Both the position numbers and the translations under genes were made by a program. From Nitrospirae bacterium CG2_30_53_67 (GTDB lineage: Bacteria; CG2-30-53-67): a stretch of 15,126 nt of DNA. The stretch's first letter is position 1, and every line of letters begins with the position of its first letter. Positions 2,867 through 15,126 of this stretch are shown in pieces. The stretch is taken from contig MNYV01000144.1 of the NCBI GenBank assembly GCA_001873285.1, positions 1 to 15,126 on the forward strand. The letters are read 5' to 3'. The notes beneath the pieces were generated by a model. That model ran no database searches. It was not told the origin of the DNA and saw nothing but the letters and a program-made list of their open reading frames with translations.

Positions 2867-2890
2867 AACTTGCAATCAAGTTGAGACTTT
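2867..2890 (+). terminator. Possible weak terminator after tatC
   Basis: AACTTG (2867-2872) and CAAGTT (2877-2882) form a short 6-bp stem with a CAAT loop, followed by gagactttt. It lies 20 bp after the tatC stop. The stem is AT-rich and the U-run short, so confidence is low. The sequence overlaps the edge of the transposase remnant and may be incidental. Confidence 0.25.
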
Positions 2891-3085
2891 TAATCCACGG
2901 CCCCAAGGACTCACAGTCGCGTACTCATACTTGAATTCCCGCACCAGCGCCAGGTTCACCATGGGCCTTAACGGCGCCGGCGCCCAGCAGGAACGGGGAT
3001 CGCTCATCCGACCCAAGCGAGCCTCGTCCTGAAACATCAGACGAACCGGCAAATGGTTCTGGTTCTTCAGGCAGACGGCTTCCAC
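2876..3085 (-). pseudogene. IS630-family transposase fragment
   Basis: The minus strand encodes a 69-residue fragment containing LPVRLMFQDEARLGRM, CWAPAPLRPMV and REFKYEYATVSPWGRG. The FQDEARFG-type block followed by CWAP, RP and YEYATVSP is the signature of the central DDE domain of IS630-type transposases; the Asp in FQDE is one of the catalytic acidic residues. Only the middle of the protein is present: there is no N-terminal helix-turn-helix, no C-terminal Glu region and no stop-free continuation. This is therefore a dead remnant of an insertion sequence lost from this site. A plus-strand open frame over the same bases is its shadow. Confidence 0.85.
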
Positions 3086-4459: not shown

Positions 4460-4477
4460 TTTTCATTAAACTGTGAT
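4460..4477 (+). promoter_or_regulatory. Pho-box-like sequence upstream of the phosphate operon
   Basis: TTTTCATTAAACTGTGAT matches the classical PhoB box (CTGTCATAAAACTGTCAT) at 14 of 18 positions, counted by eye. The second half-site, CTGTGAT, is nearly perfect. It lies 6 bp before the -35 element of the promoter serving two phosphate-uptake genes, the context in which PhoB control is expected. The first half-site is weak, so this is a candidate only. Confidence 0.45.
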
Positions 4478-4483
4478 TATACC

Positions 4484-4512
4484 TTGACGGGAGGGACCTG
4501 ATCAGCTAATAT
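4484..4512 (+). promoter_or_regulatory. Predicted promoter of the DUF47-pit operon
   Basis: TTGACG (4484-4489) and TAATAT (4507-4512) are spaced by 17 bp. The expected start is near 4519, giving a leader of about 80 nt before the first gene. Confidence 0.55.
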
Positions 4513-4521
4513 CTTCTCGTC

Positions 4522-4538
4522 TTTCAGAATATCTGAAA
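4522..4538. promoter_or_regulatory. Operator-like palindrome just after the transcription start
   Basis: TTTCAGA-ATA-TCTGAAA is a perfect 7-bp inverted repeat with a 3-base centre. It begins about 3 bp after the predicted transcription start of the phosphate operon, a typical repressor position. The stem is too weak to be a terminator. I do not recognise the regulator. Confidence 0.45.
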
Positions 4539-4601
4539 CAAATAACAAAGAAAGCCGGCAGGCCTCATCCGGCGCCTGGTGTTCCCGATAAGGTAAAAAA
4601 C

Positions 4602-5219
4602 ATGAAAATTTTCCCCAAGCAGGTCGATTTCTTTGAAATATTTGATCAAGCAGCGGATAATGTCAATGAGGCGTCCTCTCATCTCGTGGATCTTTTTGCC
4701 GATTTTTCCCTCCTGGAAGAAAAGATCAAAAAAATCTACGACCTCGAACAGAAAGGGGATACCCTGACGCACGAGGTCATGAAAAGGCTGAATATGACTT
4801 TCATCACGCCGATTGACCGGGAGGACATTCATACCCTGGCGGCCCGGCTGGACGATGTCCTGGACCTGATCTGGGGGGCCGTGGATCGGTTAAGCGTTTT
4901 CAGGATACAGGCCGGCACCCCGCAGGCCCTTGAACTGGCAAAGACGCTCCACAAGACCACCGAAGCCATTGTCCGGACCATCGGTTATCTCAAAGAAAAA
5001 AAATACTCCTTTGTCTCCGACACCTGTATTGAGATCAACCGGCTGGAAAACAAGGTGGACCGGATCTTCAGGGATGCCCTGGGACAACTCTTTGATGACA
5101 TCAAGGACCCTTTGATGATCATCAAATGGAAAGAGATCTATGAACATCTTGAAGATGCATCGGACCGCTGCGAGGATGTGGCCAATATCCTCGAGAGCAT
5201 CGTCTTAAAATATGCTTGA
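4602..5219 (+). CDS. DUF47 (PhoU-like) phosphate-transport accessory protein
   Basis: Cytoplasmic all-helical protein of the DUF47/PhoU-related family, usually encoded beside Pit-type transporters and thought to regulate or assist them. The 205-residue product shows family features: FFEIFDQAADNVNEASSHLV near the N-terminus, a helical stretch ending YDLEQKGDTLTHEVMKRL, the conserved TFITPIDREDIHTLAARLDD block (residues 66-85), and the C-terminal WKEIYEHLEDASDRCEDVAN block. Acidic pairs in the helices fit the metal-cluster sites known in PhoU. The ATG follows TAAGG at about 9 nt. Its last 8 bases overlap the start of pit, indicating translational coupling and probably a fixed ratio of the two proteins. 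Confidence 0.93.
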   Translation: MKIFPKQVDFFEIFDQAADNVNEASSHLVDLFADFSLLEEKIKKIYDLEQKGDTLTHEVMKRLNMTFITPIDREDIHTLAARLDDVLDLIWGAVDRLSVFRIQAGTPQALELAKTLHKTTEAIVRTIGYLKEKKYSFVSDTCIEINRLENKVDRIFRDALGQLFDDIKDPLMIIKWKEIYEHLEDASDRCEDVANILESIVLKYA

Positions 5220-6195
5220 AGTTATTCTTATCATCGTGATTTTGGCCGTTCTCTTTGATATCAGCAACGGTTGGAATGACTCTGCCAATGCCATTGCCAC
5301 GGTGGTCTCCACCCGGGTGCTCAGCCCTTTACAGGCAGTCATCCTCTCCGCCATCATGAATATCCTGGGGGCGTTTTCCTCCACGGCCGTGGCCAAGACC
5401 ATCGGCTCCGGAATCGTGGCCCCGGATTCCGTCACCAATATCGTGGTGGGTTCGGCCCTGATCTCGAGCTTTCTCTGGAATGCGGCCATGACATTGATCG
5501 GGATGCCTGTGAGCGCCTCCCATGCACTGATCGGGAGCCTCATGGGCGCGGCCGTGGCCTTCAAGGGGATCGGGATTCTGGAGTATGCGGGACTGACCAA
5601 GATCTTTCTGGCGCTTTTAATTTCTCCGGTCTTGGGGATTCTGGGAGGCTTTTGCCTGATGAAGGCAATCCTTGCATTCTTCGGGACCCGCTCTCCTGGT
5701 AAAATCAACAAGGTCTTCGGCAGGCTTCAGCTCGTCTCATCCGCCTTTATGGCCTTTTCCCACGGTTCCAATGACGCCCAGAAGGTCATGGGGATCATCA
5801 CCCTCTCTCTGGTCAGCGGGGGCTTCCTCCAGGCCCTTGAGGTTCCCTTCTGGGTCATCCTGGTCTGCGCCATGGCCATGGGGGTGGGGACGGCCATAGG
5901 AGGTTGGCGCGTGATCAAGACCCTCGGGGTGCAGATGCTGAAGCTCCAGCCCGTCCACGGATTCGCGGCCGAGACATCGGCAAGCCTGATCATCATCATA
6001 TCAAGCTTTTTCGGCCTTCCTGTCAGCACGACCCATGTCATCTCGACCAGTATCATGGGGGTCGGAGCCACTCAAAGGATCAGGGCTGTGCGCTGGGGTG
6101 TGGCAGGAAAGATCGTTTTGGCGTGGTTCTTTACACTCCCCATGAGCATCCTCATGGCGTGGCTGATCTGCAAGATCTTGCTCCGGATCCTCTAA
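5212..6195 (+). CDS. pit: PiT-family inorganic phosphate transporter
   Basis: Inner-membrane cation-coupled phosphate symporter. The 327-residue product is the short bacterial form (E. coli PitA is near 500) and has about ten hydrophobic segments. Both family signature repeats are present: FDISNGWNDSANAIATVVST (residues 15-34) and AFSHGSNDAQKVMGI (about 182-196). They form the inverted-topology halves that bind phosphate. GMPVSASHALIG and GLPVSTTHVISTS are the paired P-S-x-x-H segments. The ATG lies inside the end of the DUF47 gene. The stop codon abuts the stop codon of the convergent doxX with no bases between, so there is no room for a dedicated terminator. Confidence 0.95.
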   Translation: MLEVILIIVILAVLFDISNGWNDSANAIATVVSTRVLSPLQAVILSAIMNILGAFSSTAVAKTIGSGIVAPDSVTNIVVGSALISSFLWNAAMTLIGMPVSASHALIGSLMGAAVAFKGIGILEYAGLTKIFLALLISPVLGILGGFCLMKAILAFFGTRSPGKINKVFGRLQLVSSAFMAFSHGSNDAQKVMGIITLSLVSGGFLQALEVPFWVILVCAMAMGVGTAIGGWRVIKTLGVQMLKLQPVHGFAAETSASLIIIISSFFGLPVSTTHVISTSIMGVGATQRIRAVRWGVAGKIVLAWFFTLPMSILMAWLICKILLRIL

Positions 6196-6651
6196 TCATC
6201 TCTTTCCCATTTTTTCTGACAGAATTCTGTCGAGCGACCAGAGGCCGCCCCCTTTGATCATCAGGGCGATGGCAATGGCCGCAGCAAGGATATGGTACTC
6301 GAACCCTTCTCCCTTCTGGGTTCCAAACCAGTTCATGAAGAAGCCGTTTCCGAAATGAAGCATCCATACGGCCACGACCATGACGGAGGCGATGCCGAAG
6401 GCTGCGACCCGGGTCAGCAGCCCGACGATCAGTCCCATGGACCCGAGAAATTCCGCCATGATGGCCAGAAAAGCGAAGAGAGGAGGGATCCCGAGAGAAC
6501 CGGTGAAACTATTCATGGTCCCTGCAAATCCGTGACCGCCGAACCAGCCGAGGACTTTCTGGGCCCCGTGCGGGAAGAAAACGATCCCGAGCAGGACTCG
6601 AAGGACCAGGGCCGAAACATCCTTTTCCGTATGGAATAATTTCCGGACCAT
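6196..6651 (-). CDS. DoxX family membrane protein
   Basis: Small integral membrane protein of the DoxX family, 151 residues from the start at 6651. This start was chosen because a perfect AAGGAGG lies 6 nt upstream; the in-frame ATG at 6684 lacks such a site. Four hydrophobic segments are visible. The family block LRVLLGIVFFPHGAQKVLGW near the N-terminus, GFAGTMNSF, and a Gly-rich segment (FLGSMGLIVGLLTRVAAFGI) are typical. The biochemical role of this subgroup is not settled; relatives include thiosulfate:quinone oxidoreductase subunits, but many are uncharacterised and linked to redox or thiol stress. The gene is single, convergent with pit, and preceded by a hairpin repeat at 6689-6728. 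Confidence 0.92.
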   Translation of the reverse strand: MVRKLFHTEKDVSALVLRVLLGIVFFPHGAQKVLGWFGGHGFAGTMNSFTGSLGIPPLFAFLAIMAEFLGSMGLIVGLLTRVAAFGIASVMVVAVWMLHFGNGFFMNWFGTQKGEGFEYHILAAAIAIALMIKGGGLWSLDRILSEKMGKR

Positions 6652-6688
6652 GAAAGACCTCCTTGACAAAGGCTCAATGAGCATGAAG

Positions 6689-6728
6689 CGTCAAGTCATC
6701 AACCTCCGGCAAAGCCGGAGGCTTGACG
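6689..6728. repeat. Nested hairpin repeat (CCGGCAAAGCCGG family), copy 1
   Basis: Inner stem CCTCCGGC (6703-6710), AAA loop, GCCGGAGG (6714-6721). Outer arms CGTCAAG (6689-6695) and CTTGACG (6722-6728) are also perfectly complementary, with an unpaired TCATCAA on one side. The same core with other outer bases recurs at 6913-6931. No U-tract follows on either strand, so a dispersed REP-like palindrome is more likely than a terminator. Confidence 0.65.
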
Positions 6729-6771
6729 TTTGCCGCCCCCTCAAAGGGGCCTATTCGCAAACGATTAAAAA

Positions 6772-6862
6772 CACCCTCCCCTCAATCCCCTCCCATCCAG
6801 GGCTGGGGAAGGCCCACTGGTAGTTCCCTCGCCCCTTGTGGGAGAGGGGAAGGGAGAGGGGT
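6772..6862. repeat. C-rich/G-rich inverted repeat (REP-like)
   Basis: A left arm rich in CCCTCCCCTC and CCCCTCCCATCC is mirrored by a right arm GGGAGAGGGGAAGGGAGAGG, with a centre around GGGCTGGGGAAGGCCC. The arms are imperfectly complementary. A shorter element of the same composition is at 11203-11242. Such blocks are common between genes in some anaerobe genomes; I see no coding or promoter signal in it. Confidence 0.55.
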
Positions 6863-6912
6863 AAAGCATTGCAGTTAATTGCATACTCCCGGAATGGTCA
6901 AACTCTAAGAGT

Positions 6913-6931
6913 CCCCCGGCAAAGCCGGGGG
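6913..6931. repeat. Hairpin repeat (CCGGCAAAGCCGG family), copy 2
   Basis: CCCCCGGC-AAA-GCCGGGGG is a perfect 8-bp stem with a triloop, followed on the plus strand by TTTACC. It shares the CCGGCAAAGCCGG core with 6703-6721. It lies 70 bp after the end of the minus-strand methyltransferase gene and could stall polymerase there, but it lacks the U-run of an intrinsic terminator. Confidence 0.6.
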
Positions 6932-7001
6932 TTTACCTAAATTCAATTAAAGTGATTGATCCGATCCTTGATTTCAATTAAGTCAGAAGGCGGCGAAAAT
7001 G

Positions 7002-8183
7002 TCAAGGCGGCGGGAGTGGTGACGAGCCTGTTTTTTTCATCTTCCTGCTCCCTTCATACATCTCGTATTCAAGGAGCCTGCACTCGATCTCGCTGTTGAA
7101 AAAGGGGATTTTCTTTTTTGCTTTCAGTCCGACCTTTTTGGCCAGGCCGGGGTTGCCGGTAAAAACATAGCCGGTATAGCCCTTGCATCTCTGTTTGAAA
7201 AAGTCCCCTATCCCCCTGTAGACGCCTTCGAGCGCTTCGGTTTTTCCCATCCTCTCGCCGTACTCCGGATTGAGCACAACTACGCCGCCGCCATCCGGGA
7301 CCGGAGTTTCCGAATAGTCGCCTACGTGGAATTCGATCAGATGCTCGACCCCGGCCTGCGCTGCATTTTTCTTTGCGCCCTCAACGGCTTTACGGCTGAT
7401 ATCGGTGGCGATGATCCTGCCGTTCAGGGTTTTTCTTTCTTGTTTTTTTGCTTCCCGGCGAAGCGCACTCCATAAGGAAGCATTAAAACCCGTAAGGTGC
7501 ATGAATCCGAAATTGTTTCTCAGAAGACCGGGCGCCCTGTTTAATCCGATCCATGCGGCCTCAACGGCCAGGGTCCCGCTGCCGCACATGGGATTGATAA
7601 AATTCCCGTTGCCGTCCCAGCCGGTTGTCAGGACCACGGCGGCCGCAAGCGTCTCCTGCATCGGCGCTTTCAGGGGGATCTTTCTGTATCCTCGCCTGGG
7701 AAGGGGTTCCCCCGATGTGTCCAGATAAACCGAACAGTGTTCCCCTTTCCAGTAGAGGTGGACCACGGTCCGGTCTCTTTCAGGGCCTGAATCCGGCCGC
7801 CGGCCGCGTTTTTGCTTTATCCGGTCGACAATGGCATCCTTGCACTTGACATTGACATAGCGTGAATCCCTGATGTTCGGGTTCTCCACGCTGGACGTCA
7901 CGCACAGGTACCCGTCGGAAGCGATGTAATCTTCCCAGTGGATTCCTGAGATTCCCCTGTAGAGGTCTTCGGCATCTCTTGCACCAAATTCTCTCATCAA
8001 AAAGAGCACGCGGTGCCCTGTACGGAGGAAGAGGTTGAGTTTCAACGTATCCTCGATGGTCCCCTCCGTAACCACGCTCGCGATCGTCTCGGACAGGACC
8101 GGGAAACCAAGAGCAAGGATTTCCTGTTTCAGGTAAGGGGGGATCGCCTTGGGGCATGTGACCAGGATCCTGTTTTTTTTCAT
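7002..8183 (-). CDS. THUMP-domain class I SAM-dependent rRNA methyltransferase (RlmL/YpsC-like)
   Basis: Predicted 23S rRNA guanine-N2 methyltransferase of the RlmL N-half / YpsC group. With the start at 8183 the product is 393 residues, as in YpsC. GGGG lies 8 nt upstream of this ATG, while another ATG at 8189 is too close to it. The frame stays open to 8363, but that extension resembles nothing and covers a repeat. Order: ferredoxin-like N-terminus and THUMP domain (about 1-155), RGYRKIPLKAPMQETLAA (164-181), SAM motif I FINPMCGSGTLAVEAAW (195-211), motif around IIATDISRKAVEGAKKN, and motif IV LNPEYGER (304-311). The usual motif IV is NPPYGER; here the second Pro is Glu. The last 15 or so residues are basic, then proline-rich. 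Confidence 0.9.
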   Translation of the reverse strand: MKKNRILVTCPKAIPPYLKQEILALGFPVLSETIASVVTEGTIEDTLKLNLFLRTGHRVLFLMREFGARDAEDLYRGISGIHWEDYIASDGYLCVTSSVENPNIRDSRYVNVKCKDAIVDRIKQKRGRRPDSGPERDRTVVHLYWKGEHCSVYLDTSGEPLPRRGYRKIPLKAPMQETLAAAVVLTTGWDGNGNFINPMCGSGTLAVEAAWIGLNRAPGLLRNNFGFMHLTGFNASLWSALRREAKKQERKTLNGRIIATDISRKAVEGAKKNAAQAGVEHLIEFHVGDYSETPVPDGGGVVVLNPEYGERMGKTEALEGVYRGIGDFFKQRCKGYTGYVFTGNPGLAKKVGLKAKKKIPFFNSEIECRLLEYEMYEGSRKMKKTGSSPLPPP

Positions 8184-8206
8184 TTTCATCACCCCAGGGT
8201 TATAGG

Positions 8207-8290
8207 AATCAAGGGGCCAAGGGTTCAAGTGAAATACTGAAAAGCAGGCAAAATCTCCGGAGAAAAAGACTGGAACCCTTGACCCCTGAT
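8207..8290. repeat. Inverted repeat upstream of the rRNA methyltransferase gene
   Basis: The left arm contains AAGGGGCCAAGGGTTCAAGT (8211-8230). The right arm, reverse-complemented, contains AGGGGTCAAGGGTTCCAGT, and an ATCA lies at the outer end of each. The 38-base centre is unpaired. The element lies between the predicted minus-strand promoter and the gene start, so it would be transcribed as part of the methyltransferase leader. It is probably another miniature repeat. Confidence 0.6.
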
Positions 8291-8336
8291 GTTTTCGCCC
8301 ACGCTTTTGGAGGTGATCTGAAAAAGCTGACCCTAC

Positions 8337-8363
8337 TCTATAATATGACCTGCGGTCTGTCAA
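8337..8363 (-). promoter_or_regulatory. Possible promoter of the rRNA methyltransferase gene
   Basis: On the minus strand a perfect TTGACA (plus 8358-8363) is followed 15 bp later by TATAGA (plus 8337-8342). The spacer is shorter than the ideal 17 bp. It is back-to-back with the plus-strand promoter of the peptidase gene. Confidence 0.35.
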
Positions 8364-8376
8364 AAAAAATTTGGTA

Positions 8377-8406
8377 TTGCATATGACGGTGTTTTTCAGA
8401 TATGGT
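8377..8406 (+). promoter_or_regulatory. Possible promoter of the M16 peptidase gene
   Basis: TTGCAT (8377-8382) and TATGGT (8401-8406) are spaced by 18 bp. Both hexamers are only moderate matches. A start near 8413 would place the hairpin at 8408-8437 at the very 5' end of the message. Confidence 0.35.
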
Positions 8407-8407
8407 A

Positions 8408-8437
8408 CACCCTTAACAAATTCCCGGATTAAGGGTG
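8408..8437 (+). promoter_or_regulatory. Leader hairpin before the M16 peptidase gene
   Basis: CACCCTTAA (8408-8416) and TTAAGGGTG (8429-8437) form a perfect 9-bp stem with a 12-base loop, followed by gaatattttta. It could be a 5'-end stabilising stem, an attenuator or an operator. The ribosome site GGAGG near 8463 lies outside it. Confidence 0.45.
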
Positions 8438-8474
8438 GAATATTTTTAGAGGGTTTTAAAACGGAGGAAGGGAT

Positions 8475-11183
8475 ATGACTCGGAGATTTTTGAGGTTTTG
8501 GACGTTTTGGGGAGTGGCGCTGATTGTTTCAGGGCTGATCCGCCCGGAGGTTTGCAATGCCGAGGACACGGGTTCTACAGGATACAAGGAGGTTTTACGT
8601 ATGGAGGGTCTCACCAAGATTGTGCTGGATAACGGTTTATCCGTGGTCATCTCAGAAAATCATGCCGCTCCTGTAGTGGCCCTGCAGGTCTGGGTCAAGG
8701 TCGGAAGCCGTTATGAGCAGGACGACCAGGCCGGGATCTCCCACGTGTTTGAGCATATGCTCTTCAAGGGGACGAAAAAACGGGGCGTGGGGGAGATCGC
8801 CAGGGAGGTAGAGACCGCCGGGGGGAACATCAACGCCTATACCTCCTTTGACCACACGGTCTACCATCTCGTCCTGGCCAGCCGGTATTTTGATGTGGGC
8901 CTGGACGTGCTTTCCGATGCCATCCAAAACTCCTCATTTGATCCGGGCGAACTGGCCAGGGAATCCGAGGTGGTACTGGAAGAGCTCAAGCGGTCGCAGG
9001 ATGACCAGGACCAGGTGGCGGGCATCAAGATGTTCGAAACGGCCTATACGGCCCATCCGTACCGCAGGCCCGTGATCGGTTACGAAAAGACGTTTATGGG
9101 TCTTACCCGGGACCGATACCTTAACTATTTCCATCAATGGTATGTACCGAACAATATGAGCCTGATCGTGGCCGGGGACATCAAGGCCGAGGAGGTGATT
9201 CCCCGGATTGTGAAGGCCTTCAGCGGTTACGCCCCGAATCCGAATCTCACGCATGAGGTCCCGCAGGAGCCGGAGCAGAAAGAGACCCGGGCTGTGGTCA
9301 CGAGGATGGAGAGCGCCCAGACCTATCTGAACATGGGCTACCATATCCCCGATCTTCGCGATCCACGGAATCCAGCCCTGGACCTCCTCGGGATGATCCT
9401 GGGGCAGGGGGAGACCTCCAGGCTCTACCGGGAGGTGAAGCGGGAAAAGGAACTGGTGCGCAGCATCTATTCCTATGCCTTCACACCCATAGACCCGGGG
9501 ATGCTGCTGATTGATGCAGCCCTGGACGTCTCGAAGATCGAAGAAGCCCTCAGGGAAACCCTTCGTCAGGTTCACCGCCTCCAGGTGGAGCCGGTGAGCG
9601 AGGAAGAACTCTTCCGGGCGAGGACCAATGTGGAGAGCGACTTCATTTACAGCAAGGAGTCCATGGAGGGCCAGGCCAGAAAGATCGGTTATTACGAATC
9701 CGACTTCGGAGACCCGTTATATCAAAAAACCTACCTCAAGGGGATCGCCTCAGTCACACCGCAGGAGATCATGGACCTGGCCAGGACCTATCTCAGGCCC
9801 GAGAATCTGACCGTTTCCCTTTTACTTGCCCCAGACCAGCGCACGGACCTCAATGCCGAAAGTCTGAAGAGGATGGTGGAAGAGATCACCCGGAAGATCA
9901 TCGATTCGTCCCGTCCGGCCAAAGCCGGGGAAGAGGGCCTGCCGCGGAAGCTTGTCCTTGCAAACGGCATCCGGCTGATCGTCAAGGAGAATCATGCGGT
10001 TCCCACGGTATCGGTGAAGGTCGTCTTCCCGGGTGCGCAGCGCTACGAGACCGAAGCCACGAGCGGCCTCTATCATTTCATCGCCTCCATGCTGGATCGG
10101 GGTACGGATAAACGCGGAGCCTCGGAGATCTCCGCGGAGATCGAGGACATGGCCGGGAGTGTGAGCGGGTTCTCCGGACGGAACAGCTTCGGCGCTGATC
10201 TCACGATCTTGAGCCGGCATTTTTTTAGAGGGATGCATCTTCTTTCGGATCTCCTCCTGCATCCATCCTTTGATCCGTCCGAGATGGAGAAGGTCAGGCA
10301 GGATATCCTGACCGACATCAAACAGCAGGAGGATATCCTGACCCAGAGGGCCGGGAACCTCTTCCGCAGGACCCTGTATCGGACCCACCCCTATCGAATG
10401 CGGGTCATCGGAGAGGAGAAGACGGTTTCCGACTTCTCGCAGACGGATCTGGAAAAAGCCTATTTTGATTCGATCTCTCCGGACCGGATGGTGATCGCCA
10501 TCGTGGGAGACATCACGGAAAAGGAAGCGGTCAGAGCGGTCGAGGACCTCTTCGGAAAGATGGAGAAAAACAAGGTCATCGAGCCGGACATCAAACAGGA
10601 GGTTTCTCAGAATGAGGTGCGTGAAGGCCGTGAGACTGCGGACCGCCAGCAGGCCCATATGATCCTCGGTTTCCTCGGCGCCACGGTCACATCCGAAGAC
10701 CGGTATCCTCTTGAGGTCTTGAACAATGTGCTGGCCGGGCAGAGCGGGCGGCTCTTCATGGAGCTTCGGGACAAGAAAAGCCTGGCCTATGCCGTGACCT
10801 CCTTTACCCAGGAGGGTGTGGATCCGGGATACTTCGCGGCCTATATCGGTTGCAGCCCGGAGAAACTCGCCGAGGCAAAAGAAGGGATCATTGCCGAGCT
10901 TCGCCGCATCCGTGAAGAAAAGGTTTCCAAAGACGAGATGGATCGTTCCAAGAAGAACCTGATCGGGCAGTTTGAAATCGATCTCCAGACCAACGGGGCC
11001 ATGGCATCCTCTCTGGCCCTTGACGAACTGTACGGGAACGGCTTCGATGCCTACCGGAAGTATGCGGAACGGATCGAGAAGGTCACGGCAAAGGAGGTGC
11101 AGAGGATCGCCAGGAAGTATATCGATCTTTCGAGATATTCCCTGGCCGTAGTGTCCCCTGGGTCAGGAGATGGGAAAAAATAG
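8475..11183 (+). CDS. Secreted two-domain M16 family zinc metallopeptidase
   Basis: The 902-residue product starts with a signal peptide (RRFLRFWTFWGVALIVSGLI, likely cleaved after VCNA), so it acts in the periplasm or on the outer envelope. Domain pair 1 (about 45-480) carries the inverted zinc motif HVFEH (His90, Glu93, His94), with the third ligand expected in SEVVLEEL near residue 170; it is predicted active. Domain pair 2 (about 490-890) repeats the fold, beginning KLVLANGIRLIVKENHAVPT. The motif position reads HFIAS (534-538), which lacks the catalytic Glu and second His, so this half is inactive and probably shapes the substrate chamber. Active and inactive M16 halves are often separate subunits, as in mitochondrial processing peptidase; here they are fused. 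GGAGG precedes the ATG. The substrate is unknown. Confidence 0.96.
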   Translation: MTRRFLRFWTFWGVALIVSGLIRPEVCNAEDTGSTGYKEVLRMEGLTKIVLDNGLSVVISENHAAPVVALQVWVKVGSRYEQDDQAGISHVFEHMLFKGTKKRGVGEIAREVETAGGNINAYTSFDHTVYHLVLASRYFDVGLDVLSDAIQNSSFDPGELARESEVVLEELKRSQDDQDQVAGIKMFETAYTAHPYRRPVIGYEKTFMGLTRDRYLNYFHQWYVPNNMSLIVAGDIKAEEVIPRIVKAFSGYAPNPNLTHEVPQEPEQKETRAVVTRMESAQTYLNMGYHIPDLRDPRNPALDLLGMILGQGETSRLYREVKREKELVRSIYSYAFTPIDPGMLLIDAALDVSKIEEALRETLRQVHRLQVEPVSEEELFRARTNVESDFIYSKESMEGQARKIGYYESDFGDPLYQKTYLKGIASVTPQEIMDLARTYLRPENLTVSLLLAPDQRTDLNAESLKRMVEEITRKIIDSSRPAKAGEEGLPRKLVLANGIRLIVKENHAVPTVSVKVVFPGAQRYETEATSGLYHFIASMLDRGTDKRGASEISAEIEDMAGSVSGFSGRNSFGADLTILSRHFFRGMHLLSDLLLHPSFDPSEMEKVRQDILTDIKQQEDILTQRAGNLFRRTLYRTHPYRMRVIGEEKTVSDFSQTDLEKAYFDSISPDRMVIAIVGDITEKEAVRAVEDLFGKMEKNKVIEPDIKQEVSQNEVREGRETADRQQAHMILGFLGATVTSEDRYPLEVLNNVLAGQSGRLFMELRDKKSLAYAVTSFTQEGVDPGYFAAYIGCSPEKLAEAKEGIIAELRRIREEKVSKDEMDRSKKNLIGQFEIDLQTNGAMASSLALDELYGNGFDAYRKYAERIEKVTAKEVQRIARKYIDLSRYSLAVVSPGSGDGKK

Positions 11184-11202
11184 AAAATAGCCAATAGAAA
11201 AA

Positions 11203-11242
11203 TTTCCCCTCCCTCGACTGGAGGGGATAAAGGGGAGGGTGA
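11203..11242. repeat. C-rich/G-rich inverted repeat between the peptidase and flavoprotein genes
   Basis: TTTCCCCTCCC on the left faces GGGGAGGGTGAAA on the right, with an internal CCCTC-gact-GGAGGGG. It has the same composition as the element at 6772-6862. It ends just before the ribosome site of the next gene (AAGGAG, 11246-11251), so folding could affect access to that site. No U-run follows, so it is not a standard terminator. Confidence 0.55.
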
Positions 11243-11259
11243 AAAAAGGAGTCATTACC

Positions 11260-11811
11260 ATGAAAATCCCGGAGAAGATTGATCTGGCGTACCGCTTTCT
11301 CACCCTGGGCTGCACGGTTCTTGTGACCTCGGCCTGTAAGGGGGAGACCGATATCCTGACGGTCTCCTGGCAGACGCCGGTCAGCAAGAATCCTCCCCTC
11401 TTTGCCGTCGCTGTGGCCAAGGGTCACCATTCGCACAAGCTCATTGACCGGAGCGGCGCCTATGTCATCAATGTTCCAAATGAATATCTGATTAAAGAGG
11501 TCTTTTATTGCGGCACCCATTCCGGCCGGGACGTGGACAAGTTCAAAGAGACAGAACTAACGTCCGAGCCCGGAGAATTTGTGGAAGCGCCTCATATCAA
11601 GGAATGCGTGGCCTATGTGGAGTGCCGGGTGGAAAGCGCCTATACGTCCGGGGACCATACCCTTTTTATCGGTAAGGCCCTCAAGGCTGAGGTAACCCGA
11701 GGGATCTTCGACGGAGTCTGGAAGATCGGAGAGCCCGGCACCGAGTTTCTCATCCATCTCGGCGGTCCGCACTTCTTCGTCCCCGGCCGGGTGATCAAGG
11801 CGGCGCCATAG
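11260..11811 (+). CDS. Flavin reductase domain protein, flavoredoxin-like
   Basis: Predicted cytoplasmic FMN-binding split-barrel protein of 183 residues. The ATG at 11260 has AAGGAG 9 nt upstream; an in-frame GTG at 11239 would start inside a repeat and has no such site. Family features are the N-terminal TLGCTVLVTSACKGETDILT strand pair, the SWQTPVSKNPPLFAVAV block that contacts the flavin phosphate in relatives, HHSHKLI, and the FYCGTHSGRDVDKF segment. Length and these blocks match flavoredoxin-type proteins of sulfate reducers, which carry electrons to sulfur-compound or thiol reduction; the electron partner is not visible here. It lies between the peptidase and trpE genes without an obvious shared pathway. 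Confidence 0.88.
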   Translation: MKIPEKIDLAYRFLTLGCTVLVTSACKGETDILTVSWQTPVSKNPPLFAVAVAKGHHSHKLIDRSGAYVINVPNEYLIKEVFYCGTHSGRDVDKFKETELTSEPGEFVEAPHIKECVAYVECRVESAYTSGDHTLFIGKALKAEVTRGIFDGVWKIGEPGTEFLIHLGGPHFFVPGRVIKAAP

Positions 11812-11851
11812 GGATGATGGTTGAATCTAAAACAAATTTTCTATCTACACT

Positions 11852-13387
11852 ATGGAGACCACAACCGAAAGAGCAGAGATCACCCCCACACTCAAGGATT
11901 TTTTAAACCTTTCCCGGGGCCCCAAGGCGGTTCCGATCTTCCTGAAGATCCCCATGGGGACGCTCGACCCGCCTTCGGTCTTTGAGCGCGTCCATGAGGG
12001 GAGGGATTCTTTTCTTCTGGAGTCCGTCAAGGGGACATCACAGATCGGCCGGTATTCCTTCGTGGGCTCACGCCCTTTCCGGGTCTTTGAGAGCAAGCAT
12101 GACCAGATCCGGATTCGTGAAGGGCTCTATGAGACCCTGATCCAGGGGAACCCCTTTTCCGAGCTCCGACGCCTGCTTCAGGAAACCCCGATGGTCAGAA
12201 TGAAAGGCCTTGCTTTTTTTACCGGCGGGGCCGTGGGCATGATCGGGTACGATGCGGTCCACTTCCTTGAGCGCATCCCCAGGACGGCCAGGGATGATCT
12301 TCAGATTCCCGACCTCTATTTCCTGTTCGTGGATACGGTGGTGGTCTTTGATCATGTGGAGCGGGAGATCATCCTGGCCCATGTCCCCATGCTGAGGAGG
12401 CGCCCGGATGCAGAGGAAGAAAGGGTCCGGGCATACAACCGGGGTGCGGAACAACTCAAGGCGCTTCTCCAGAGGGTGATTACGCCTGCTTCGAAAAGAG
12501 CGGCTCAGTCTGACGCCGGACCCAAGGACTTTACCGTAGCCGCCAATATGGGGAAAGAAGATTACATGGAGATGGTCCGCCGGGCCAAGGCATATATCCG
12601 GGCGGGCGATATCTTCCAGGCCAACCTCTCCCAGCGGCTGACCGCAGAGATCGGGGACCTCGACCCTTTTCGTCTCTATAAGGTCCTGCGTGAGATCAAC
12701 CCTTCACCCTTTGCGGCGTTTATGGACTTTGAAGGTTTTCAACTGGTGAGTTCCTCACCCGAGCGGCTCATGCGCCTGCATCAGAGAATCGTGGAGACCC
12801 GCCCTATTGCCGGGACCCGGCCCAGGGGGAGAGACGCCAGGGGTGACCAGGCCATGAGCGCGGAGCTGATTACCAATGAAAAGGAGCGGGCCGAGCATAT
12901 CATGTTGATTGATCTCGAACGAAACGACATCGGCCGCGTCTGCGATTACGGCTCGGTCTCTGTGGATGAATTCATGGCGCTGGAGGAGTACTCCCACGTG
13001 ATCCATATCGTCTCCAATGTGCGCGGGCGGCTCCATGAGAAAAAGGATCTGTTTGACCTGATCCGGGCGGCCTTTCCGGGAGGGACCATCACCGGCGTGC
13101 CCAAGGTGCGCTGCATGGAGATCATTGACGAGCTCGAGTCCGTGCAGCGCGGGCCGTACACCGGCTCCATCGGCTATCTCGGCTTCAACGGAGACATGGA
13201 CCTCAACATCATCATCCGGACCTTCGTGATCAAGGACGGACGCGCCCACGTGCAGGTGGGCGCCGGCATCGTGGCCGACTCGGACCCGGAGCGGGAATAC
13301 CTTGAGACCCTGCACAAGGCCGACGCATTGCTTCAGGCATTGAAGGTGCTGGAAGATGAAGGCGGTCTCCCCGCTCACGGAGGATAA
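11852..13387 (+). CDS. trpE: Anthranilate synthase component I
   Basis: Large subunit of anthranilate synthase, the first step of tryptophan synthesis (chorismate to anthranilate). The 511-residue product has the N-terminal regulatory domain with SFLLESVKG (residues 53-61); the LLES motif is the tryptophan feedback site in TrpE. GRYSFVGSRPF follows. The chorismate-binding domain (about 230-500) includes AGDIFQANLSQR, SSSPERLMRL, ETRPIAGTRPRG, LIDLERNDIGRV, GGTITGVPKVRCMEIIDELE and GAGIVADSDPEREYLET. All key blocks are intact. The ATG lacks a clear ribosome site, and only 40 bp separate it from the flavoprotein gene. The glutaminase partner TrpG, expected next, is absent; a free GGAGG sits at the end of the gene. 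It can use ammonia or a TrpG encoded elsewhere. Confidence 0.97.
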   Translation: METTTERAEITPTLKDFLNLSRGPKAVPIFLKIPMGTLDPPSVFERVHEGRDSFLLESVKGTSQIGRYSFVGSRPFRVFESKHDQIRIREGLYETLIQGNPFSELRRLLQETPMVRMKGLAFFTGGAVGMIGYDAVHFLERIPRTARDDLQIPDLYFLFVDTVVVFDHVEREIILAHVPMLRRRPDAEEERVRAYNRGAEQLKALLQRVITPASKRAAQSDAGPKDFTVAANMGKEDYMEMVRRAKAYIRAGDIFQANLSQRLTAEIGDLDPFRLYKVLREINPSPFAAFMDFEGFQLVSSSPERLMRLHQRIVETRPIAGTRPRGRDARGDQAMSAELITNEKERAEHIMLIDLERNDIGRVCDYGSVSVDEFMALEEYSHVIHIVSNVRGRLHEKKDLFDLIRAAFPGGTITGVPKVRCMEIIDELESVQRGPYTGSIGYLGFNGDMDLNIIIRTFVIKDGRAHVQVGAGIVADSDPEREYLETLHKADALLQALKVLEDEGGLPAHGG

Positions 13388-13397
13388 GAGAACCCTC

Positions 13398-13433
13398 TTG
13401 ACATTCTGCTCTTTTAATGTACGCTGTTGTACA
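13398..13433 (+). promoter_or_regulatory. Promoter and YefM-type operator of the antitoxin gene
   Basis: A perfect TTGACA -35 (13398-13403) begins 11 bp after the trpE stop. A weak TACGCT (13420-13425) is the best -10 at 16 bp spacing. Overlapping it is the inverted repeat TGTAC-GCTGTT-GTACA (13418-13433). E. coli YefM operators carry palindromes with a TGTACA core, so the repeat fits autoregulation by the Phd/YefM-type protein encoded 18 bp downstream. Confidence 0.55.
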
Positions 13434-13450
13434 GAATGGAGGGGTTTCAG

Positions 13451-13687
13451 ATGAAGACGATATCATTCACCGAATTTCGCAAAAATGCCTCAAGCCTTTT
13501 CTCTATCGTCGAGGATGGGGAGGTTATTGTTGTCTTGCGGCATGGTAAACCCATTGCTGAAATTGTACCGGTATCACCGAAGCATGGCATTCCGTCCTGG
13601 AAGAGACCGGGTTTAAGACTTTCAGTCAAGGGCGTAAAACTGTCTTCGGCCATTCTCGAGGAGCGCGAGCTTGAAGACGTTCTTTGA
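13451..13687 (+). CDS. Phd/YefM-family type II antitoxin
   Basis: The 78-residue DNA-binding antitoxin would neutralise a cognate toxin and repress its own promoter. The N-terminus MKTISFTEFRKNASSLFSIV, then GEVIVVLRHGKPIAEIVPV, is the classic Phd/YefM fold. The C-terminus ending SAILEERELEDVL is the toxin-binding tail seen in Phd-type partners of PIN-domain toxins. The ATG at 13451 follows GGAGGGG by 6 nt; an in-frame TTG at 13427 would lie inside the operator and is less likely. It has its own promoter-like elements. The toxin that should follow is reduced to a stub (13671-13739), so this looks like an orphan antitoxin. Confidence 0.9.
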   Translation: MKTISFTEFRKNASSLFSIVEDGEVIVVLRHGKPIAEIVPVSPKHGIPSWKRPGLRLSVKGVKLSSAILEERELEDVL

Positions 13688-13739
13688 TGCTTCAGCATTC
13701 GCAGTGAATAAAGTTCTTTTCTCAGTTTCATTTCTCTGA
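13671..13739 (+). pseudogene. Truncated PIN-domain (VapC-like) toxin stub
   Basis: A TTG start at 13671, overlapping the last 17 bases of the antitoxin gene, opens a frame reading MKTFFDASAFA and then VNKVLFSVSFL before a TGA at 13737-13739. FFDASAFA is the canonical beginning of PIN-domain RNase toxins, with the first catalytic Asp. After about 11 codons family resemblance stops and the DNA turns AT-rich. The remaining catalytic acids of a PIN domain, roughly 120 residues more, are missing. I read this as a toxin gene truncated at about 13704 by the event that brought in the following methyltransferase gene. The stub is short, so confidence is moderate. Confidence 0.6.
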
Positions 13740-13780
13740 TAGATTAACATACCAACTCAAAAAAATTCCGGTATGAAATC

Positions 13781-15126
13781 ATGGCCAATAACGGGAAAAT
13801 CCGCAAGAAAGATTCAGCAAGGCTGACGTGGGACAGCAAGCCGCGCCGTGCGCCGAATCCCAAGGATATAGAATTTCAAACCGCAGAGGTCGTGATTCCC
13901 AACCCGGTCCGCAGGGAAGAGCTCCCCTTGTCATTTAGAGACGGCATCATTGGTGAGGCTGAGATTGACAAGCAGAAGATGAACCGCCTGATATGGGGCG
14001 ACAATTTGCTTGCCATGCAGGCCCTATTGTCGCAGGGTTATGAAGGCAAGATCAACCTCATCTACATTGACCCGCCTTTTGATTCAAAGGCAGACTACTC
14101 CCACAAAATGACCATCAACAACAACCCCACTTTAGAAAAGGGAGGCAAGGGGGGATTTGAACGGGGGGTTGAATTCGCCAAAGAACCCTCTGTCATTGAG
14201 CGCCTTGCATACAAAGACACATGGGCAGGAGGGACTGACTCATACCTTGATATGCTCTATCCGAGATTGCAGTTGATGAAAAGACTGCTGGCGGAGGATG
14301 GAAGTATTATTGTTCATTTAGATTATCATATAGTTCATTATGTCAAAATACTTTTAGATGAAATTTTCGGTAGAGGACTTGAAAAAGACGATATTGGATA
14401 TCGAAATGAAATTATTTATTGTTATAGCGGTGGAGGAACCCCACCAACCGAATACCCGAGAAAACACGACAATATTCTTTGGTATTCCAAAGGTCGCAAA
14501 TGGATTTTCAATACTCAATACAGACCATATTCGGAAGGTACTGTTCAAAGGGGGAGGACTGCTGTAAAAGGAGAAAATGCCAAACTTAACCCTTTGGGTA
14601 CGCCTGTGAATGATTGGTGGACTGACATCAAAAAGATAACAAGCCCCACCGATCCCGAAAAAACTTATTACGATACTCAAAAATCAGAAGATTTACTCAC
14701 AAGGATTTTACAGTGCCATAGCAGTACAAGTAATCTTATTGCCGATTTCTTCTGCGGCTCTGGCACAACATTAGCTGTTGCTGAAAGGCTCAACTGTCGC
14801 TGGATTGGCTGCGAACTTGGAAAGGTTGGGATTCAGGTTGCCCGCGCAAGGCTTGTTGAACAGCAGGCAAGACCCTTCCTGATAGAAAACATCGGCAATT
14901 ATCAGCGGGAGATGATTTATCTTACAGGCGGACGCATCTATGAGATGCAGAATCTTATTCTTAAACTCTATGGCGCAACTCCTCGTGATAAGATGAGCGG
15001 GCTCGGCATACGCAAGGCAGATGACGGCGTAGAGGAACTTGTGTACGTGGGCTATCCGGATAGACCTGTCTCAGCAGGCAAGGCAGAGGAACTTGCGCTT
15101 CAGGCGCAGAAGTTGGACGGCAGGGG
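13781..15126 (+). CDS. Site-specific DNA methyltransferase, beta class (type III Mod-like), 3' end beyond the window
   Basis: The frame is open from the ATG at 13781 to the window end, at least 448 codons without a stop. It is an adenine or cytosine amino-methyltransferase using SAM. Motif order is catalytic DPPF (residues 97-100, in LIYIDPPFDS) first, SAM motif FFCGSGTT (323-330) second: the beta class, as in type III Mod proteins. Other family blocks are NRLIWGDNLLAMQALL (68-83), KEPSVIERLAYKDTW (134-148), LAEDGSIIVHLDYHIVHYVK (170-189) and WWTDI (279-283). DPPF rather than DPPY suggests N6-adenine but does not prove it. The target-recognition region (about 200-310) is short and AT-rich. 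Residues about 114-130 look like a translated repeat insertion. No clear ribosome site precedes the ATG. A helicase/nuclease partner may lie to the right. Confidence 0.92.
   Translation, partial: MANNGKIRKKDSARLTWDSKPRRAPNPKDIEFQTAEVVIPNPVRREELPLSFRDGIIGEAEIDKQKMNRLIWGDNLLAMQALLSQGYEGKINLIYIDPPFDSKADYSHKMTINNNPTLEKGGKGGFERGVEFAKEPSVIERLAYKDTWAGGTDSYLDMLYPRLQLMKRLLAEDGSIIVHLDYHIVHYVKILLDEIFGRGLEKDDIGYRNEIIYCYSGGGTPPTEYPRKHDNILWYSKGRKWIFNTQYRPYSEGTVQRGRTAVKGENAKLNPLGTPVNDWWTDIKKITSPTDPEKTYYDTQKSEDLLTRILQCHSSTSNLIADFFCGSGTTLAVAERLNCRWIGCELGKVGIQVARARLVEQQARPFLIENIGNYQREMIYLTGGRIYEMQNLILKLYGATPRDKMSGLGIRKADDGVEELVYVGYPDRPVSAGKAEELALQAQKLDGR
14128..14172. repeat. Intergenic-type repeat inserted in frame within the methyltransferase gene
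   Basis: The run containing CCCCACTTTAGAAAAGGGAG, then GGCAAGGGGGGATTTG and ACGGGGGG, is typical of G-run/C-run intergenic repeats in composition. It encodes a low-complexity stretch (PTLEKGGKGGFERGV) between the conserved blocks SKADYSHKM and EFAKEPSVIE, where relatives as I know them have only a short linker. The reading frame is kept. The element's exact borders cannot be set without an uninterrupted homologue. Confidence 0.5.

Follow-up and report, generated by a model that had tools for sequence, protein, structure and literature searches.

A toxin stub between a Phd/YefM antitoxin gene and a type III Mod gene, behind a pabB-like gene of a metagenome-assembled genome

Results

Behind a pabB-like gene of the metagenome-assembled genome (MAG) G000, a Phd/YefM-family antitoxin gene is followed by 11 initial codons of a VapC-like PIN toxin gene and, 77 bp further on, by the beginning of the Mod gene of a type III restriction-modification system (Table 1). 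We favor, with no more than even confidence, the reading that a single imported defence island, holding both a Phd/YefM-PIN pair and the type III Mod, came to lie behind the pabB-like gene, and that its toxin was broken. The window (the whole stretch of 15,126 nucleotides analysed here) is the complete contig C144 of MAG G000, which comprises 183 contigs and 2.36 Mb and is ~95% complete.

Table 1. Features of the window around the toxin stub, with positions counted from the first nucleotide of the window.
Feature	Positions	Strand	Basis
TrpE/PabB paralogue, most likely pabB (aminodeoxychorismate synthase component I)	11852..13387	+	TIGR models, C81 comparison, best solved relative
GGAGG in last codons of the pabB-like gene	13379..13383	+	read directly
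Promoter-like TTGACA-N16-TACGCT, operator-like half-sites and ribosome site ahead of the antitoxin gene	13398..13444	+	read directly; similar in L046, L048
Phd/YefM-family antitoxin, 78 aa	13451..13687	+	Pfam PF02604 (PhdYeFM_antitox), E 2.5e-11
VapC-like PIN toxin remnant: 11 native codons (13671-13703), 11 unrelated codons, TGA 13737-13739	13671..13739	+	VapC homology
77-bp junction, 30% GC	13704..13780	+	between toxin stub and Mod
Type III restriction-modification Mod gene, 448 codons from its start to the contig end	13781..15126	+	Pfam, PADLOC, homologues
In-frame REP-like repeat in Mod (NNNPTLEKGGKGGFERGV), 18 codons replacing a 3-codon turn	14117..14170	+	alignment with relatives, genome counts

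The gene upstream of the junction is most likely pabB

The gene that ends with the TAA at 13385-13387 had been taken, in a sequence-only reading, for a trpE that lacks its partner trpG, and proved to be a PabB-like paralogue. Two TrpE/PabB-type proteins were found in G000, one encoded on C144 and the other on contig C81, with 45% identity between them. The genuine trpE lies on C81, where trpG follows 12 bp on and trpD comes next in an intact run. The C144 protein resembles PabB in passing the PabB-clade2 model TIGR01824 (411.6 against a cut-off of 408.55, with C81 TrpE below it at 377.2) and in having the PabB structure 7pi1 as its best solved relative (a TrpE for the C81 protein), and it differs in also passing, just barely, the TrpE model TIGR00564 (trpE_most; 519.9 against a cut-off of 517.7), on which the C81 protein reached 604 bits. 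A third model, TIGR00553, was narrowly missed by the C144 protein and narrowly reached by its ortholog in G001. Only one TrpG-like protein of G000 scored above cut-off. In Bacillus subtilis, PabB and TrpE share one TrpG/PabA, and the simplest reading is that the C144 gene would be a pabB whose product uses the genome's single TrpG amidotransferase.

An interrupted trp operon, with an insertion between trpE and trpG, was ruled out because the trpEGD run is whole on C81 and because no trpG follows the ortholog in any of four same-family relatives (G001, G003, G004 and G005). This corrects an annotation trap, in which a lone pabB-like gene is mistaken for a trpE without trpG. The GGAGG in its last codons, earlier described as a free ribosome site, is indeed present; as a leftover signal of a lost gene it is unsupported, since the + strand of the window has 39 copies of the motif and the C-terminal tail that encodes it differs in the orthologs of all four relatives, and is thus unconserved even within the genus.

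The interval behind pabB differs among relatives

In G001, which belongs to the same genus, the ortholog (91% identity) has BrnT and BrnA behind it, while an smr-macro pair lies directly behind it in G003 and after other sequence in G004 and G005. DNA synteny between C144 and G001 runs, with gaps, from 4468 to 13355 and then stops, and the only shared flank behind pabB in these two genomes was a 9-bp match (TTGACATTC; P 0.06 against shuffles). The smr gene of G000 has been reduced to approximately its last 31 codons, which lie on another contig (C88; locus L148, 4310-4404) upstream of an intact macro-domain gene and next to guaB-guaA, and the pabB-smr interval must therefore have been rearranged in this lineage. 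Since the same-genus G001 carries an unrelated BrnTA pair at the very same spot, the site behind pabB is a recurring landing site, at which the pabB-smr gap of this family accepts unrelated toxin-antitoxin (TA) modules (VapBC-type in G000, BrnTA in its sister species).

On its other side, the pabB-like gene is separated from an M16 peptidase gene by a flavin reductase gene (11239-11811), which is missing in G001 and precedes the pabB-like ortholog in G005; in G003 it is likewise there, as an ORF end. Farther upstream, the minus-strand ORF fragments 1-248 and 2876-3085 look by eye like transposase pieces, and neither of the two translations tested gave a Pfam match.

The antitoxin gene is complete and its toxin ends after 11 codons

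The self-contained Phd/YefM unit seen earlier 11 bp past the pabB-like stop was borne out by Pfam (Table 1), and the antitoxin also scored above the TIGR01552 cut-off. Its putative control region consists of TTGACA (13398-13403), TACGCT (13420-13425), TGTAC..TGTACA (13418-13433) and GGAGGGG (13438-13444) ahead of the ATG at 13451, and a comparable layout is found upstream of the homologous antitoxins of L046 and L048. Judging from its family and this conserved layout, the antitoxin is probably an autorepressor that binds the TGTAC half-sites at its promoter, and it may still be expressed. A 16-bp repeat (13354-13369 and 13449-13464) is likely due to chance.

The protein is 63-68% identical to antitoxins in G049, G038 and G073, each of which is paired with an intact PIN toxin of 137-140 aa that matches Pfam PIN and starts with VKTFFDSSAFAKRY, MKTLCDSSAFAKRY or MKIFFDSSAFAKRY. 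In the window, the corresponding gene starts with TTG at 13671 and encodes MKTFFDASAFA through 13703, followed by unrelated codons and a TGA, so that the earlier observation that the PIN match ends at about this position holds. When all 30,194 ten-residue positions in the six frames of the window were scored with BLOSUM62, KTFFDASAFA outscored all other positions against the N-termini of each of the three homologous VapC toxins (score 47 versus a self-score of 50), and with two of these toxins every other window position stayed below half the observed score. Of a VapBC/Phd-PIN module, the locus thus holds the antitoxin and, in place of a complete adjoining PIN toxin gene, 11 codons. An antitoxin without its toxin would not cause addiction; it may be decaying, or it could neutralise an incoming VapC that is related to the lost one.

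The rest of vapC, which had been expected at the far side of the methyltransferase block, was found nowhere in the contigs of the ~95%-complete G000 (which also lack the rest of Mod), with a query that did recover the toxin from the genome it was taken from and from three others. The 77-bp junction between stub and Mod showed no detectable homology to VapC or to sequences upstream of other Mod genes, its hairpins and inverted repeats were not significant, and no target-site duplication was seen.

The methyltransferase belongs to a widespread type III Mod family

The methyltransferase is a Mod, as indicated by Pfam (N6_N4_Mtase, E 6.7e-37) and PADLOC (best match MTase_III, E 1.8e-64), and its DPPF (residues 97-100) precedes its FCGSGT (residues 324-329), which is the beta-class order. 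Its lower GC, part of the initial description, was confirmed (0.467 versus 0.588 for the pabB-like gene). Mods that are 60-66% identical occur in Thermodesulfovibrionia, Nitrospinota, Elusimicrobia, Planctomycetes, Patescibacteria-type and other MAGs; in other phyla, many are followed by a type III Res. Upstream of these relatives lie unrelated genes, in many cases only a few bases away. By analogy, a Res gene would follow Mod beyond the contig end, and Mod would methylate its recognition site. The C-terminus of Mod was not found elsewhere in the G000 contigs. The scans run against IMG/VR returned no relatives of either the antitoxin or Mod, and a viral origin was rejected on this ground.

TA genes accompany several members of this family. 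A DarT and a macro protein (DarTG) lie between Mod and Res in L107, L127 and L136 (in L127 by reading-frame similarity), HicA does so in L112, and a DUF2281-PIN pair is located between Res and Mod in L124. On plasmid p1 of Acidithiobacillus caldus, moreover, a helicase gene is followed by Phd/YefM (45% identical to the antitoxin studied here), VapC and an N-6 DNA methylase. This cargo and the plasmid arrangement indicate that TA modules, as identified by sequence, are usual neighbours of defence-island methylases. Across L105-L136, the Mod-Res interval is apparently a variable cargo position, with DarTG, HicA, VapBC, AAA/PHP proteins and DUF3800.

One imported island or successive insertions

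The antitoxin and Mod genes have GC3 values of 0.50 and 0.48, respectively, against 0.73-0.76 for host genes, although the antitoxin value, coming from 78 codons, is a rough measure. This composition suggests that antitoxin and Mod arrived together. An island of this kind would have brought a type III Mod with a VapBC-type TA pair beside it. The toxin would have been lost past codon 11, either through a deletion or when it was fused to the Mod flank; the intact VapBC homologues show what was lost. No second genome in which this antitoxin adjoins this Mod family was found, a literature search for the antitoxin, toxin-stub and Mod arrangement returned nothing relevant, and a later arrival of the restriction-modification block inside vapC would have left an identical C144 sequence.

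That later arrival is the core of the main alternative, for which we see a real though smaller chance. The sequence-only reading had proposed two successive insertions, of a TA unit between trpE and trpG and then of a restriction/defence block into the toxin gene. Of this reading, the TA unit behind the gene, the truncation of its PIN toxin to 11 codons and the foreign methyltransferase alongside all stand, and the trpE/trpG site does not; in its amended form, a VapBC unit landed behind pabB and a type III restriction-modification block then entered vapC. The toxin does break inside its coding sequence with Mod only 77 bp on, members of the Mod family have landed downstream of many unrelated genes, and the BrnTA pair of G001, which has no Mod at this site, implies that a lone TA module can land there. 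Two insertions are, however, harder to reconcile with the missing remainder of vapC, the foreign GC3 common to antitoxin and Mod, and the lack of a target-site duplication at the junction. Because of this shared GC3 and the TA cargo of the Mod family, one island accounts for the locus no less well than two insertions.

It is rather improbable that the toxin was removed when pabB and smr were separated by rearrangement, with the same recombination joining Mod there: smr does survive as its last ~31 codons beside guaBA on C88, but a link between C88 and C144 was not observed, and C88 reaches neither Mod nor vapC. That metagenome assembly joined unrelated pieces at the junction is very hard to credit, for although G000 is a draft MAG of 183 contigs, with a composition shift at the junction and a contig end within Mod, the junction holds no repeat long enough to mislead an assembler and the independent genome G001 also has TA-type DNA directly behind its pabB-like gene.

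Whether it arose from one island or otherwise, the locus represents a common kind of defence-gene wreckage, ordinary turnover behind a misnamed gene, and adds a case in which the toxin was lost and the antitoxin kept beside a mobile restriction system.

Dispersed repeats occupy one loop of Mod

At the site of the in-frame repeat in the C144 Mod, most relatives have just three codons (EGN or similar). The Mod of L105 carries a nearly identical insert, and other relatives carry different ones at the same site: SVIPAKAGIQ (L106), SVIPAEAGIQ (L115 and L122), CHPRENGDPE (L139), SVIASEEAKQS (L111), ASAEATAGK (L113 and L114), PSTSGRGEGEG (L107) and, at a contig end, a KGG-type repeat that is read in the opposite orientation (L137). 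We read these inserts as putative translations of other dispersed repeats. Indeed, the KGG-type repeat has 3 copies in G000 (up to 2 mismatches) and 13 in the genome of L105, and the VIPA-type repeat has 5 to 30 copies in the genomes of L106, L115, L122 and L139. These counts cover whole genomes for the KGG and VIPA types (backward-read controls gave 0), and the other families were judged by eye.

In a structure prediction of low confidence (mean pLDDT 44.6), the repeat loop forms a beta-hairpin turn soon after the catalytic DPPF. Passive tolerance of this turn is the default explanation for the inserts. Approximately eight separate events in several phyla are involved, one of them in C144, and each insert would come from a repeat family of its host group. 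The loop might alternatively be a site at which REP-like repeats land specifically, or be selected to vary, which we consider doubtful. The repeat-collecting loop is the part that specialists might follow up, and adds modest interest to the locus. The C-terminal half of Mod in L115, L119, L121 and L122 has further in-frame, repeat-like inserts (e.g. SARLPTGQAGR and LPAEASAQAG), and the Mod of L122 has an apparent GIY-YIG domain inside.

Comparison with known systems

Intragenic REPs are known, and different REPs occur at about the same recB site in two Xanthomonas species (PMC3733652); the occurrence of several repeat families at one Mod site across phyla is an extension of this phenomenon. 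The Mod inserts resemble the REP/RPE repeats inside coding genes (PMC3733652) in being short, dispersed, palindromic and in frame within a protein, and differ in that several repeat families, in different phyla, share one loop of one restriction gene.

The antitoxin and stub resemble the VapBC-like modules of L046, L047 and L048 and of the A. caldus plasmid in antitoxin identity, in their promoter/operator-like layout, in the toxin N-terminus and in a toxin start that overlaps or abuts the antitoxin end. Unlike those modules, the C144 pair cannot act as a TA system, because its toxin has only 11 codons. Likewise, the locus shares with type III restriction-modification systems that carry TA cargo a Mod that is closely related to Mods followed by Res, whose loci hold DarTG, HicA or VapBC, but here no Res was seen, the TA genes lie upstream of Mod and are broken, and Mod itself is cut by the contig end.
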